A stretch of 44,620 bases of DNA from a virus: IMG/VR virus record IMGVR_UViG_3300037247_000112, positions 1 through 44,620 of that record. One strand, 5' to 3'. Both the position numbers and the translations under genes were made by a program. This document shows, piece after piece, positions 3,939 through 10,836 of the stretch. The notes below the pieces were generated by a model. It did no database searches, had not been told where the DNA came from, and saw only the letters and a list, made by a program, of their open reading frames with translations. How positions within the stretch are numbered: position 1 is the stretch's first letter; every line of letters begins with the position of its first letter.

Positions 3939-3966
3939 GGGAGCCTTGTGCTCCCCTTTTTATTTT
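3939..3966 (+). terminator. Intrinsic terminator after capsid/decoration genes
   Basis: GGGAGC (3939-3944) and GCTCCC (3950-3955) form a perfect 6-bp stem with loop CTTGT, followed by CTTTTTATTTT. It lies between the decoration gene and the beta-helix fibre gene. It probably lowers read-through so that coat and decoration proteins outnumber tail proteins. Confidence 0.9.
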
Positions 3967-3980
3967 ATAAGGAATACAAT

Positions 3981-5246
3981 ATGACTTTACACAATGCCTT
4001 AACAGGTGTGGAGTTACATGAAACTAAAGGAGCAGCAGGTGCCACTAGAGGGCATATACTAGTTGCTAGTGGAGCAGGTACTGCTGTGTACCAAGCCTTA
4101 TTAGGGAACGTGGTTTATGTTAATACTTTAGCAGACTTACCTACAGCAGCAGGTGGTAAGATTACATTACTTGCTAGTACCACTTATCTATTTGGGGCAA
4201 ACATAAACATAGGTACTGACTTCTTGCAATTTAGTACAGGGTCAAGTGTGCAAAGCAGGGCAGCATTTACAGCTATCATTACCTATACAGGAACTACTCC
4301 TATGTTACAAGGGACTGATGTTAATGTCACTGTAAATGATATTAACATTGTTTGTAGTAACTCAGATGTATTTGGGCTGAACGACACTGGGGGAGGTGGT
4401 AATAGTATAGCTTTAGTAAGTAATTTTGTAATACTAGCATGTAAAGGAGTAGGTACAATTGATAACTTAAATGCTATGGTATTTACTAATGTTACAGCAA
4501 TTGATTGTACGTCAGGAATGACGATTACAGGAACTAATTGGTCTGCCCTACGTATGACCTCTGTTAACTTTCAAAGTACTAGTACAACATTTATAGGTAT
4601 GGACTTTACAGGCTCTGTACAAAAGGCTCTAGTTTTAGATGCTATGATATTTACAGGCGGTACAGGCAGTATAGGAATTAAAGGAGACGCAGCTAACGCT
4701 AATATCAGTGCTAACTTTATCGCAGCTGTGACAGATACTCAGTTCACAGGAGTAACTACTCCTTTGTCTGGCATTACTACAGACGATTTTCGTTGGGACT
4801 TTCAAGGTAACGGTGTTGTAGCTGATAGTAATGCCGATGCTATGGTTTCTCTGACAGCTAATGCTACAGTCACTACACTAGCTGTAGGTGTTCCCGCGCT
4901 AATAGCAGGTACTTGGGTAGTTGAACGCGAGTCTATGTTCACTGGCACTACAGGCGGGCGCATCACCTATAATGGTGAAAGAGATTTGACTACCCCTATT
5001 GATATAACTATAACACTCAATCCTGTTTCTGGTACTAATAAAGTGTTCAGAGCTTACTTAGCCTTAAATGGTGCCGTTATTGTTAATAGTGGTAAAGCTA
5101 TACGTTTAGATAACGCTGACCCCTTAGCTATTACTGTGCCATGGCAGCTCAAGTTAACTACGGGAGACTTCTTAGAAGTGTTCGTAGAGAACGAGACTGA
5201 TAGTATTGACGTTACAGTAATAGATGGTGTAATGAGGGCGAGATAA
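3981..5246 (+). CDS. Beta-helix fibre / receptor-binding structural protein
   Basis: The 421-residue product starts at ATG 3981 after AAGGA; an earlier in-frame ATG at 3948 lies inside the terminator and is unlikely. The N-terminus (HNALTGVELHETKGAAGATRG) is of a kind often seen in virion-attached fibre proteins. The middle (about 40-280) is a chain of short beta strands with Asn, Thr and Val turns typical of a right-handed parallel beta-helix. The last 130 residues look like a jelly-roll cap. It probably trimerises and sits on the head or tail as a host-contact fibre. There is no obvious polysaccharide lyase or esterase catalytic motif. Function is inferred from architecture. Confidence 0.65.
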   Translation: MTLHNALTGVELHETKGAAGATRGHILVASGAGTAVYQALLGNVVYVNTLADLPTAAGGKITLLASTTYLFGANINIGTDFLQFSTGSSVQSRAAFTAIITYTGTTPMLQGTDVNVTVNDINIVCSNSDVFGLNDTGGGGNSIALVSNFVILACKGVGTIDNLNAMVFTNVTAIDCTSGMTITGTNWSALRMTSVNFQSTSTTFIGMDFTGSVQKALVLDAMIFTGGTGSIGIKGDAANANISANFIAAVTDTQFTGVTTPLSGITTDDFRWDFQGNGVVADSNADAMVSLTANATVTTLAVGVPALIAGTWVVERESMFTGTTGGRITYNGERDLTTPIDITITLNPVSGTNKVFRAYLALNGAVIVNSGKAIRLDNADPLAITVPWQLKLTTGDFLEVFVENETDSIDVTVIDGVMRAR

Positions 5247-5247
5247 C

Positions 5248-8200
5248 ATGGCTAGACAAAAGGCAGTCGAGACTCATATAGAGGTATCGAGGGGATTTGC
5301 TACTGAAGTAAACCCGGTAGTAGCAACACCAGAAGTACTAGTAGATATAGATAACTGTATCATTGCTAGGGACGGTACTATTCGTAGAAGATTAGGCGTA
5401 GAGTTAGAAGTTGGTTTCTCTACTAACTTAATAAACGGTGCGGCACTAGGTCTTGGGGAGTTAGATACTATTGCATTTGCTACTGACTTGTGGACTTCCG
5501 TAGCCAACATAGGGTCGTTTAATATAGTAGTACAGCAGATAGGAGCAGTACTACAATTCTTCTCTCAAGTGGGGGCACTGTCTAGTAACTTTCTTGGAGA
5601 GTTAGACCTCGCAGTTCACACTGTAGATTTGTCCCTAATGGTAGTTACACCCATGCAACTAACTTCAGGACTTGGTAAGTTATTTGTAGTAAATCCCTAC
5701 ATGGAGCCTGTTGTAATAACATTTGACGAGGGTACTTTTTTAGTAGAGACAACTACTTTACAGCAGCGAGACTTTGAGGGTCTTGATGATGGGCTAGCAA
5801 TAGATGAACGTCCTGACCTACTAACTAAGCTCCACTATTATAACCTACGTAATCAGGGATGGAGTGATGAGAACATTAACATATTTGCAGGCAGAGCCTC
5901 TACCACTAACCTGTGTACAGGTACTACTGGTACAGGACTAGCTGCGGATAGTAGTAAGGACTGGCCTAGTAACTCTGATATAATGACAGTGGGTATTGTA
6001 GTCAATAGTAGTGGAGATTTAGAGTTTGACCCTGAGTTTATAAGGGAAGACTTTCTAGGTAACACTCCTGCCCCTAAGGGACACTTCATATTAGATGCAT
6101 TCAACAAGGATTATAGTGCAGCTTTAAATTGTTCGGGAATTGATACAGCTGTAACTACTACACGCCCTGAAGCTATCGCATTTCACCAAGGACGTATATT
6201 CTATGCAGCGCCTCCGGGCAGAGCTGTAGGTAATGGTATATTCTACAGTCAGCAGCTCCTAGCAGACGATAGAAGAGGTAAATGCTTTCAAGAGGCAGAC
6301 TCTACAGCAGCAGAAGTTAATGACCTTGTAGCTACTGATGGAGGCTACCTACCTACCCCCGGAATAGGACAAGTGTATAGGCTACAAGAGATGTCGAATG
6401 GTATAGTTGTCTTCGCATCTAATGGTGTGTGGTATTTAACAGGAGCAGAGATAGGTAGTGCAGTCACAGGTACTAGCTTACGTCTTGATAAAGTATACTC
6501 TTCAGGGGTTTTAGGTGCAGCTAGTATAGTGGAGGCTGAAGGAAATATATACTTCTTTAGTGAAGAAGGCATTATGAAGGCTAATATAACTATTGAAGGC
6601 GTTAAAATAGAGAATATATCTAAGAGTAGCATACAAAGATTCTACACAGCTATTGATACAGCTGCTCGTGCAAAAACTGTATCTGTGTTTATACCTACTG
6701 AACGTAAGATTTTCTGGGCATACAGCTCTCCTGCGGTGGCAAGCTCTAGCTTAGATAAATTATTGATTCTTGATTTAGATGTGGGAGGCTATTATAAGTA
6801 CTCCATACAATATGATGATGTTCAAGTTTACCCTCAGATTATAGGCGTAAGTAAGGTAGCACCACTAGCACGTAATACTACTGTAGCCACTGTAATAACT
6901 ACAAATGGTATTCCAGTAACTACATCAGATGGTGTAACGTTAGTCACAGCTAATATTATTGTAGACTCAAGCCAAACACCTGAGTTAAAGTTAGCAACCT
7001 TAGTTGAGGATACAGGGCTAGGAGGACATCTGTCCACATTCGCTACATTTGATAGGGGCAACTTCCGCGACTGGACAAGCTCTACAGTAACTGGTTTAGG
7101 TTTACCTATGGTATCCTCTATTGACTTTGCACAAACTGCTATGGGAGCAGTACATACAAATGGCAGACCTACACACGTAAATACATACTACTCTAAAAGT
7201 TCAAAGAATGTTCCCGGAATACGTACACTAACGACAGCAGGTGCATTGGGATGTAGTACGGGAGTAAACCTTGTACTACTGATAGACATCTCTAACTCTA
7301 TGGTAGCGTCTGGCTTCTTGACAAGTGATATAAAGCCGGGAATTAAGGGATTGATAACTGATTTACTAAGTAGTGTTAGTGGTATTAGTATAGCACTAGA
7401 TGGATTTTCTACGGACACTGCGAATTTTGCAGGCTTTACCGACAATGAGGCTACCCTACATGCAGCAGTGGACACCGCCTATGCTGACCCTATTGCAGCA
7501 CAAGCTACTGCCTTGGGACTTGGTATAGACTTAGCAGCAACAACACTAACAGGTGCTACAGGCTTTAAGAGCCAAGTAATATTTATAGTTACTGACGGAG
7601 TGGGTAACATTCCAACAGGTAGTGGATTACAGGCAGGTGTAGATTCTGCCGCAGCGTTAACTAACACAGAAATTTATGTAGGTGGTATCGGTGGTAGAGA
7701 TGGGTTTAACGACTTATACCTTGAGACATATATAGCAACCACTCCTGCGCATTATTCGCAGATAGATGATTATGATGAAATGATAGTTGAATTAGCTAAA
7801 GTGGCTACATGTCCCTCACAAGTACCTGTACCAGTGGACTACTTGAACACTACGTTTGCTACAAACTGGAAGATGTCTACAACTACATTAGATGTATCAA
7901 ACAAGAGAGTAGAATGGATACAGGATTTTGGATTATATGTTCTGGTATCAGAGGCGTTTGCGCAGTTTGACACTACTAATATAGAATGCATACACACTAG
8001 TCCTGACGGTATCACTTGGACAGCACGAGATGTGGCTTTAAAGACCGCAGCGTTAGGAGATGTGGCTTACTCATCAGCCTTAGGCTTAGCAGTGGCAGTA
8101 GGAGTACAAGACCCCTTCGAGGGCTTCGGAGCAATCAAAGGCTTCCGTACGTCAACGGATGGTATCACATGGGTTGAAACATCTGCTCCTACAGATGCCT

Positions 8201-8823
8201 TTTATTATGGTGTCATGTGGTCAGCTGCTAAGAGTTTGTTCATAGCATCAGGTGATGATGGTATATTCAGTAGCACAGATGGTGTTACTTGGGTGAACAG
8301 AGAGAGTGGTGATGCGTTTGATAAGGTAGCCTACGCTGATTCCTTAGGGTTGTTTGCAGCTCCTACACGTAATGGAGACGATGTATACACCAGCTCTGAT
8401 GGTATCACATGGGCGATAACTGCTGCTGCCTTGCCACAGAACTCATTCCGTGACATAACTTGGTCAGAGTCCTTAGGTAACTTTGCAGCAATATCTGTAG
8501 TTAATAGTTTATCTCAGGGCGTAGCTCACAGCAGTAATGGCACAACATGGACAGTGGCTACGGTTGTTGGTGATGGAGAAAAAGGAAGACGCTCAGTTAA
8601 GTGGTTCCCGGTAGAAGGGAAGTTTATATCAGTAGATGATGGTGACAATGCACATAACATAATATCTAGTACAGATGGTATAACATGGATTGAAGAGACA
8701 GCTCTAACAGAGTGGCCTGCTGGCACAACACTAGTAGACATAACCCGTAAGAGTGCAACAGAGTGGGTAGTTATAAGAGAAAGTGGTATGGTAGCTTTCC
8801 GTAGCATAGCAGCACCCTTTTAA
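5248..8823 (+). CDS. Tail nozzle protein with inserted von Willebrand A domain and beta-propeller
   Basis: This 1191-residue protein begins as a T7 gp12-like tail tube (nozzle) protein. Residues about 14-50 have the typical VDIDNCIIARDGTIRRRLG pattern, and residues about 590-650 match the late nozzle region (DRGNFRDWTSS, then THVNTYYSKSS). It then departs from the family. Residues about 670-855 are a von Willebrand A domain with a full metal site: D680, S682 and S684 in DISNS, T754, and D783 in VTDG. Residues about 860-1191 hold six repeats ending S-x-D/N-G-x-T-W (Trp at 924, 975, 1015, 1055, 1101, 1147), as in a BNR/sialidase-like beta-propeller. The conserved C-terminal nozzle segment is missing here but is found in the next gene. 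The likely role is the DNA exit tube with a large host-binding head at its tip. Confidence 0.85.
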   Translation: MARQKAVETHIEVSRGFATEVNPVVATPEVLVDIDNCIIARDGTIRRRLGVELEVGFSTNLINGAALGLGELDTIAFATDLWTSVANIGSFNIVVQQIGAVLQFFSQVGALSSNFLGELDLAVHTVDLSLMVVTPMQLTSGLGKLFVVNPYMEPVVITFDEGTFLVETTTLQQRDFEGLDDGLAIDERPDLLTKLHYYNLRNQGWSDENINIFAGRASTTNLCTGTTGTGLAADSSKDWPSNSDIMTVGIVVNSSGDLEFDPEFIREDFLGNTPAPKGHFILDAFNKDYSAALNCSGIDTAVTTTRPEAIAFHQGRIFYAAPPGRAVGNGIFYSQQLLADDRRGKCFQEADSTAAEVNDLVATDGGYLPTPGIGQVYRLQEMSNGIVVFASNGVWYLTGAEIGSAVTGTSLRLDKVYSSGVLGAASIVEAEGNIYFFSEEGIMKANITIEGVKIENISKSSIQRFYTAIDTAARAKTVSVFIPTERKIFWAYSSPAVASSSLDKLLILDLDVGGYYKYSIQYDDVQVYPQIIGVSKVAPLARNTTVATVITTNGIPVTTSDGVTLVTANIIVDSSQTPELKLATLVEDTGLGGHLSTFATFDRGNFRDWTSSTVTGLGLPMVSSIDFAQTAMGAVHTNGRPTHVNTYYSKSSKNVPGIRTLTTAGALGCSTGVNLVLLIDISNSMVASGFLTSDIKPGIKGLITDLLSSVSGISIALDGFSTDTANFAGFTDNEATLHAAVDTAYADPIAAQATALGLGIDLAATTLTGATGFKSQVIFIVTDGVGNIPTGSGLQAGVDSAAALTNTEIYVGGIGGRDGFNDLYLETYIATTPAHYSQIDDYDEMIVELAKVATCPSQVPVPVDYLNTTFATNWKMSTTTLDVSNKRVEWIQDFGLYVLVSEAFAQFDTTNIECIHTSPDGITWTARDVALKTAALGDVAYSSALGLAVAVGVQDPFEGFGAIKGFRTSTDGITWVETSAPTDAFYYGVMWSAAKSLFIASGDDGIFSSTDGVTWVNRESGDAFDKVAYADSLGLFAAPTRNGDDVYTSSDGITWAITAAALPQNSFRDITWSESLGNFAAISVVNSLSQGVAHSSNGTTWTVATVVGDGEKGRRSVKWFPVEGKFISVDDGDNAHNIISSTDGITWIEETALTEWPAGTTLVDITRKSATEWVVIRESGMVAFRSIAAPF

Positions 8824-8839
8824 TATTTAGGAGAAACTA

Positions 8840-9127
8840 ATGACACCATCCACATTGAACAGCTGTATATTAACTGCTAAGTTTGGATGGAGTAGCACTG
8901 ACCTGATAGGTAGGTGGTCTACTCCGCAAGAGACTTATAAACTACGTACACAAGAACTGGCTAAGGTCGGGGGAGTTGAGGAAGACTACCCCTATGATGT
9001 AGTAACCACTAGGGTAAGAGTGAGAGGCAGTGGCGAAGTAATGCTGCTGCATTATGAATCCTCAGATGGTAAAGATTTTGAGATGGCAGGTAGAGTAACA
9101 CCATTCACAGCTGAAACAGAGGGGTAA
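8840..9127 (+). CDS. Detached C-terminal segment of the tail nozzle
   Basis: This 95-residue protein matches the very end of T7 gp12-like nozzle proteins, with a cysteine-led strand (NSCILTAKFGWSS), then GRWSTPQETYKLR, then the hallmark end VRVRGSGEVMLLHYESSDGKDFEMAG. It has its own AGGAG site and ATG, and lies in a different frame from the 1191-residue protein upstream, so it is translated separately. It most likely completes the nozzle fold in trans, next to the residues that precede the von Willebrand A insertion. This pairing is an inference from family pattern and adjacency. Confidence 0.75.
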   Translation: MTPSTLNSCILTAKFGWSSTDLIGRWSTPQETYKLRTQELAKVGGVEEDYPYDVVTTRVRVRGSGEVMLLHYESSDGKDFEMAGRVTPFTAETEG

Positions 9128-9217: not shown

Positions 9218-9988
9218 ATGGCTAAGAGAACTATACTACAATTAGTGCAGCAGCTGGGGGAGTCTATAGGCTCAGATGAGATTGATACTCTTGATGAAAC
9301 TATTGAAGCCTCTGAGATTGCCACTATACTTGAACAAACTGTAACAGAGGTTATCAGTCGTAAACGTTGGGAGTTTATTAAGGATAGAGTACGCCAGTTA
9401 GATATTAGGGATATTGCTAGTACTCAGCTAAACACTTTGGTTATCCCTAGTGACGTAACACGTATCAACTGCCTGAAGTATCGTGATACAAACAATGCAG
9501 ATGTTACTACATTTATAAAGCTAACTTATATGCAGCCTTGTGAGTTCATAGAATTTGTACAAGCCCGTAACTCAGCTGACTCTAACATAACTGCCATTGC
9601 TAATGACGATGGGGTGTTAATTAATGTCCTTACGGACAATGCCCCTACTCGGTGGACATCCTTTGACGAGGAGAATATAACATTTGATGCGTATGACGCA
9701 ACACTAGGAACAGGGAATTTAATTGCAGATAGTGTTATAATAGCTGATATCGTTCCTGTTATAGATTACACAGATGCTACAGCTACACTAAAAGTGCCTG
9801 AGAGAATGGAAACTTTAATCTATAATGAAGCGGTGAGTACATGTGCTATTCGCCTACGTCAAACAGTTGACCCTAAGGCGGAGAGAGTGGCACGAAGACA
9901 GCACATAGCTCTACGAGAACAAGAGCACATTACCAATAAAGATATAAAGGAAGCAAATTATGCCAGACGTTCAAGAAGTGGTAGATAA
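9218..9988 (+). CDS. Head-tail adaptor (T7 gp11-like tail tubular protein A)
   Basis: This 256-residue protein has the signature opening of podovirus adaptors: a leucine-rich N-terminal helix, then SDEIDTLDETIEASEIATI, then a long helix and KRWEF. A central beta region (about 70-190) is followed by a C-terminal helical tail rich in Arg and Gln. Adaptors form a dodecameric ring beneath the portal and hold the nozzle. The family's usual neighbour is the nozzle gene, here immediately upstream. The gene overlaps the next one by 29 nt. Confidence 0.85.
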   Translation: MAKRTILQLVQQLGESIGSDEIDTLDETIEASEIATILEQTVTEVISRKRWEFIKDRVRQLDIRDIASTQLNTLVIPSDVTRINCLKYRDTNNADVTTFIKLTYMQPCEFIEFVQARNSADSNITAIANDDGVLINVLTDNAPTRWTSFDEENITFDAYDATLGTGNLIADSVIIADIVPVIDYTDATATLKVPERMETLIYNEAVSTCAIRLRQTVDPKAERVARRQHIALREQEHITNKDIKEANYARRSRSGR

Positions 9989-10347: not shown

Positions 10348-10836
10348 ATGATAACTATGTCAAGTAATATCAACTTAATAGAAGTAACTAATCTAAGCTA
10401 TAAAGAACTTATAACATTAATAGATAAAGACCCCGTGAGTCACCTCGAAGAGGTTCCTTTCGGGAATTTCCAATTAGAGTTAGACCTCGTGGATGAGGTG
10501 TACGACTACTCTGAACAAGCAGGCTACTGTAGAAGTTATATAGTGTCCGTGAATGGTAACTACGCGGGATATATACTACTGATGGCCTCTGAAATGATAC
10601 ACCACAGAGGTCAGATGCAGGCAGTAGCAGACTCATTTTATATAGTGCCAAAGTATAGAAGCTCTGGCGCATTTACAACATTACTGACATATGTTGAAAA
10701 CGATTTACGAAGTAATGGTATCAGATTTTTAACAGTAGGACTAAATCCTAACATGCCCCATGTACACAAAATGCAAAAGTTTATAAATGATAAAGGGTAT
10801 GTACATACGGAAGCATATTATACTAAGGAATTATAA
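10348..10836 (+). CDS. GNAT-family N-acetyltransferase
   Basis: The 162-residue product has the acetyl-CoA binding motif A of GNAT enzymes: a beta strand (QAVADSFYIVPKYR), then the pyrophosphate loop R-S-S-G-A-F followed by a helix (TTLLTYVENDLRSNG). A downstream strand LTVGLNPN and a C-terminal GYVHTEAYYTKEL strand match the family end. Phage GNATs acetylate unknown targets; many podoviruses carry one between tail and internal-protein genes. The start could be ATG 10348 or 10357; neither has a strong ribosome site. Confidence 0.8.
   Translation: MITMSSNINLIEVTNLSYKELITLIDKDPVSHLEEVPFGNFQLELDLVDEVYDYSEQAGYCRSYIVSVNGNYAGYILLMASEMIHHRGQMQAVADSFYIVPKYRSSGAFTTLLTYVENDLRSNGIRFLTVGLNPNMPHVHKMQKFINDKGYVHTEAYYTKEL

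Follow-up and report, generated by a model that had tools for sequence, protein, structure and literature searches.

The search for host-recognition parts in podoviruses usually turns to fibres and spikes, which raises the question of what an adhesion-type domain does in the gene of a DNA-ejection nozzle, where we find a von Willebrand A (VWA) domain followed by a beta-propeller, together termed the cassette here. The locus lies in IMGVR_UViG_3300037247_000112, a virus record of 44,620 bases, the whole of which is the window of this analysis. The record stems from a podovirus with a Zobellviridae-like gene order, running from the portal, a scaffold-like gene, the capsid protein and a fibre-like gene to the nozzle, the adaptor, a GNAT gene and an internal virion protein (Table 1). 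The nozzle gene is accompanied by adaptor, portal and capsid genes, and VpV262 shows the same order. The GNAT acetyltransferase-like gene (phrog_1249, 10348-10836) lies inside the tail module and is retained in many relatives.

Table 1. Positions of the nozzle, its cassette and neighbouring tail genes in the window.
Feature	Position	Strand	Basis
Fibre-like protein, within the variable island	3948..5246	+	phrog_16509; blastp
N-terminal nozzle chain (residues 1-653) with platform strands, the propeller and the beginning of the C-terminal platform	5248..7206	+	phrog_8094; model
VWA domain, residues 674-844	7267..7779	+	PF00092; profile matches to integrin/TRAP/ANTXR2/BatB structures
MIDAS motif D680-x-S682-x-S684	7285..7299	+	sequence; D-x-[ST]-x-S in L002, L099
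MIDAS T754	7507..7509	+	sequence; aligned T in L002, L099
MIDAS D783 (TDG)	7594..7596	+	sequence; invariant in L002, L099
Seven-bladed Asp-box beta-propeller, residues 870-1191	7855..8820	+	model, 28 strands
Six Asp-box motifs [ST]x[DN]GxxW, residues 918, 969, 1009, 1049, 1095, 1141	7999..8688	+	motif scan
Ribosome-binding site AGGAG, 6 nt before the ATG of the C-terminal nozzle chain	8829..8833	+	sequence
C-terminal nozzle chain of 95 aa, last part of the platform domain	8840..9127	+	phrog_8094 681-758/769, E 1.4e-12
Adaptor (gp11-like) tail protein, seat of the nozzle	9218..9988	+	phrog_7592 E 5e-51

A nozzle encoded in two chains

The ORF at 5248-8823 on the plus strand is open for 1191 codons, and its residues 1-653 are a T7-type podovirus nozzle protein. 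They match phrog_8094, a tail appendage family, over profile positions 1-666 of 769 (E 1.3e-87), and their predicted structure, with pLDDT values mostly of 90-98, finds its best solved matches in VP1, Pa223, Carin1, the crAss001 muzzle, SU10, HRP29, T7 gp12 and P22 gp10 (Z 19-24). Profile and fold thus bear out an earlier note on this DNA, which had recognised a nozzle region ahead of the VWA domain. The 95-residue ORF downstream can be aligned to the C-terminal end of nozzles encoded as a single chain. Since it covers the end of the family profile, has its own AGGAG and lies in another frame, the nozzle is encoded as two chains, and the difference in frame means that readthrough is unable to join them. 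The small ORF, formerly taken for a partner of the nozzle, is by profile match and alignment the nozzle's own missing C-terminus. Of the proposed insertion of a VWA domain into the nozzle, the fusion itself stands, but the domain is appended at the break of the nozzle gene and does not lie within one chain.

The break can be placed on the nozzle by comparison with T7. Residue 643, the last one confidently placed before the junction, aligns to T7 gp12 residue 709, and in one looser alignment residue 661 aligns to residue 745. The C-terminal domain of T7 gp12 is the platform that touches the adaptor, blade 3 of the propeller extends to form the tip, and the fibre dock is on the outer nozzle surface between propeller and platform (PMC6702177). 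As the junction falls into this adaptor-facing platform region, the cassette is expected to emerge close to the upper end of the nozzle and not at the tail tip, where the VWA domain had been assumed to sit. The size and variety of the cargo tolerated suggest that it faces outward.

A VWA domain with a complete MIDAS and an Asp-box propeller

Behind the nozzle part, the Pfam VWA profile matches over positions 1-167 of 174 (E 3.2e-9, 37.7 bits against a curated cut-off of 23.8; E 1.9e-12 in a scan of 49 records), and all five residues of the complete MIDAS are found letter for letter; on both points the earlier reading was correct. A second structure model was made for residues 600-1191. In its residues 673-855 the order of strands and helices is the alternating alpha/beta pattern of VWA domains, in a block with pLDDT of only about 40-83, and the matches listed in the fold searches with this model were propellers alone. 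The best solved relatives of the VWA profile are integrin alpha-1, TRAP, ANTXR2, SpaC and Mfa5, along with Bat-type proteins. This kinship, mostly with adhesive or ligand-binding VWA domains, would fit a function in adhesion.

Three nozzle loci with a VWA domain were found among the 49 records, the window and the contigs L002 and L099, in line with the expectation that the architecture is not common across nozzles. The MIDAS residues (D-x-[ST]-x-S, T and D) are retained in all three despite a VWA identity of 23-28%, a conservation from which we predict a functional metal site. Among cultured phages, neither the VWA region of the window nor the VWA of L099 had a match, and genome contigs scanned for either the nozzle or the VWA domain gave no relative. 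Since the virus contig comes from a metagenome, its nozzle-VWA fusion could in principle be due to misassembly or a frameshift. However, the same fusion is present on two independent contigs from other assemblies (L002, E 2e-11; L099, E 9e-15), which argues that it is no assembly chimera. With an ORF open over 1191 residues and conserved flanks in addition, the probability of an artefact is close to nil.

The phage VWA domains that we found described in the literature are partners of MoxR/CobS co-chaperone systems (PMC7824862, PMC7911831, PMC8651126), and they are common in phages (PMC7824862, PMC7911831). A CobT-like vWA that adjoins a MoxR/CobS-like AAA+ ATPase indeed occurs in the record of a relative, L062 (L262:256-3171). 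Nevertheless, it is very improbable that the nozzle VWA is a co-chaperone of this usual kind: it is fused to a virion protein, its best structural relatives are mostly adhesive, and no AAA+ gene was found in the flanking genes scanned in the window.

The propeller behind the VWA domain, which the earlier note had overlooked together with the split of the nozzle gene and the variable cargo site in relatives, is modelled with seven four-stranded blades. Its best solved fold matches are YCF48 (best in the PDB) and virginiamycin B lyase (Z 29.5). Asp-box propellers are widespread among phages, with at least 347 candidate loci, and the BFVD matches of this one are diverse phage proteins. That distribution would suit a decoration of the virion which, by adhering to polysaccharide or to surfaces in the environment, keeps the phage near its hosts without deciding host specificity. 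We consider this unlikely, as the cassette is carried by the ejection conduit and lies in the variable island of the fibre described below. A possible independent nozzle-propeller fusion occurs in another podovirus (L205:2892-5930), where an Asp-box propeller forms the C-terminus of a phrog_511 virion protein with weak kinship to nozzles.

In L002 and L099, the VWA domain is itself spread over two ORFs. The first ends with five glycine codons and a stop, and the next ATG overlaps this stop (TAATG; L002:10440-10460, L099:6740-6762). The second ORF opens with the last part of the VWA domain, and the propeller follows. The run of glycine codons reads GGTGGAGGAGGAGGC in L099 and GGTGGAGGGGGTGGC in L002, and contains an AGGAGG-like ribosome site. 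A sequencing error in the G-run of L002 was considered as the source of the frameshift and dismissed: the stop-start recurs in L099, where there is no homopolymer, so the arrangement is probably real. It probably represents termination-reinitiation, by which the VWA domain would be completed by two chains.

The cargo site in related phages

How general is the break in the nozzle gene? Nozzle loci were drawn from IMG/VR and GenBank, and duplicates were removed before counting. At 112 loci the C-terminal part shares an ORF with nozzle sequence ahead of it; six of them have a split at another place, so that about 106 distinct loci, the majority of relatives, carry both nozzle halves in one ORF. 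At 12 loci besides the window, the C-terminal part has an ORF of its own behind the loop at which the window is cut. The cargo at this loop differs: VWA plus Asp-box propeller in the window, L002 and L099; a phrog_2448 protein of about 340 residues in L019, L020, L021, L067, L098 (two copies), L100, L106, L107 and L116; an extension plus a phrog_6368 ORF in VpV262; unclassified ORFs in the Vibrio breoganii phages 1.015.O and 1.209.O; and a kelch-like start in L025, the last being a weak match (E 0.004) on an incomplete contig. VWA and phrog_2448 did not occur together in any of the nozzle records scanned. One relative, L268, has no cargo at all, its nozzle C-chain starting 9 nt after the stop of the N-chain, and this split nozzle without cargo indicates that the cargo is accessory. 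Thus, the nozzle break is a shared cargo site whose contents are variable and removable.

Two further features of the family were observed. N-chains with phrog_2448 cargo end in at least two LRxSQSVxEVL repeats directly ahead of the cargo gene (L019:10100-10175, L021:6620-6692, L107, L100, L106), and the repeat is perhaps a docking peptide. A lectin-like nature of the phrog_2448 cargo itself was supported by neither the Pfam nor the PDB sequence search. Relatives of the Melvirus HP1 type (L017:4959-7655, L015:4956-8161, L016:4986-7198) have their nozzle split at a second place, around residue 290, and in two of them an extra ORF lies between the halves, assigned to phrog_8270 in L017.

The cassette and the nozzle that carries it have different kinships. 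In the nozzle tree, the window is paired with L002 (100/100), and L099 stands in another branch among carriers of phrog_2448; the nozzles of the window and L002 are the closest pair (71% identity), against 51% between L002 and L099. For the VWA domain, identity is 56% between L002 and L099 and 28% between the window and L002, and the start of the propeller follows the same pattern (54% and 31%). This conflict indicates that cassettes were exchanged or replaced at least once. The base composition of the cassette gives no strong sign of recent import. Between the window and L019, identity is 81-86% for the portal, capsid, adaptor and internal virion proteins but 56% for the nozzle; the fibre-like protein is homologous over about 45 residues only and the cargo is unrelated. 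Hence, fibre, nozzle and cargo form one variable island, and the differences concentrate in the parts expected to recognise the host. The conserved N-terminal stretch of the fibre-like protein contains HNALTGxELHE, and the remainder is replaced in L002 and L019. Being modular and exchanged between close relatives, the cassette behaves as receptor-binding modules do.

The variability could instead mirror the docking of different fibres. MIDAS sites also serve assembly functions, and the VWA domain might be an internal docking or assembly device whose MIDAS binds an acidic residue of another tail protein (fibre, adaptor or nozzle C-chain) and so keeps the fibre or the split nozzle in position. 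The location in the platform region, beside adaptor and fibre dock, and the joint variation of fibre gene and cassette are in line with such a role. However, L268 has the same split nozzle without cargo, so the split needs no clamp, and unrelated modules fill the site in other phages. Docking thus has something in its favour, but we regard it as doubtful.

A probably swappable module on the ejection nozzle

We consider it probable that the cassette is an accessory, swappable adhesion module on a split nozzle that binds a receptor and contributes to host range. Relatives carry quite different modules or none at the site, which makes an exchangeable host-gripping part the probable reading. The mechanism that we propose starts from the break of the nozzle gene at one loop close to its end, which gives a nozzle of two chains; the cut would serve as a display site for exchangeable cargo, with VWA domain and propeller covalently tied to the N-terminal chain. 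If the nozzle is hexameric as in T7, about six copies of the cassette would surround its upper, adaptor-facing part. The VWA domain may bind a host-surface ligand via a MIDAS-bound Mg2+ or Mn2+, and the propeller may add a second, possibly glycan-binding surface, so that both would act as an accessory receptor-binding module beside the fibre-like protein. A precedent for such grafting is the PilB pilin, in which a grafted VWA domain gives MIDAS-dependent adhesion (PMC8179133). Counting against receptor binding is the position of the insertion, close to the adaptor, where contact with a receptor is less readily expected than at the tip.

In integrins, the VWA domain sits between propeller blades. 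The integrin alpha I domain is likewise a VWA in covalent linkage with a propeller of seven blades, but in the window the VWA precedes the propeller, and common descent is not claimed. A bolder extension of adhesion would be an integrin-like, metal-dependent receptor head, in which ligand binding could pull on the ejection conduit and help to open it, with the virion domains of L002 and L099 completed in trans; we see this as a speculative and rather improbable version.

The nozzle belongs to a known kind. With the T7 gp12-type nozzle and the Zobellviridae tail appendage (phrog_8094; SIO1 gp27, VpV262 ORFN+ORFP) it shares profile, fold and the portal, capsid and adaptor neighbours. However, T7 gp12 and most phrog_8094 loci that we found are single chains, while the window has two chains with the VWA-propeller cassette at the cut. 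VpV262 is among the closest known arrangements, with the same split loop, a separate C-terminal piece and an extra module in between (ORFN/ORFO/ORFP), although its extension and phrog_6368 protein lack a VWA. The broken nozzle gene is already visible in its GenBank record, the note of which reads 'mosaic pattern'. In the crAss001 muzzle gp44, two Ig-like domains and a crass domain are grafted on the nozzle (PMC10172136). It resembles the window in being a nozzle propeller with grafted domains, yet they sit at other positions, include no VWA and belong to a single chain. A MIDAS VWA grafted onto an appendage subunit is also found in VWA pilus adhesins and in PilB, the modular pilin of Streptococcus sanguinis (PMC8179133); PilB, however, is part of a bacterial pilus and has no beta-propeller, whereas the window encodes a viral DNA-ejection nozzle for which binding is predicted. 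In the open-access literature searched, we found no description of a VWA-bearing phage nozzle or tail protein, in agreement with the earlier note, for which no such nozzle was known to be described. Measured against this literature, the nozzle is of a known kind, its cargo belongs to a class not reported so far, and the cargo site has received little notice.

Thus, this lineage has an evolvable cargo site on the DNA-ejection nozzle itself, and the adhesion-type VWA domain is one of its cargoes. The cargo-less L268 offers a natural control, and the natural split of the nozzle could serve assembly studies. More broadly, the site is a place to seek overlooked receptor-binding modules in podoviruses.
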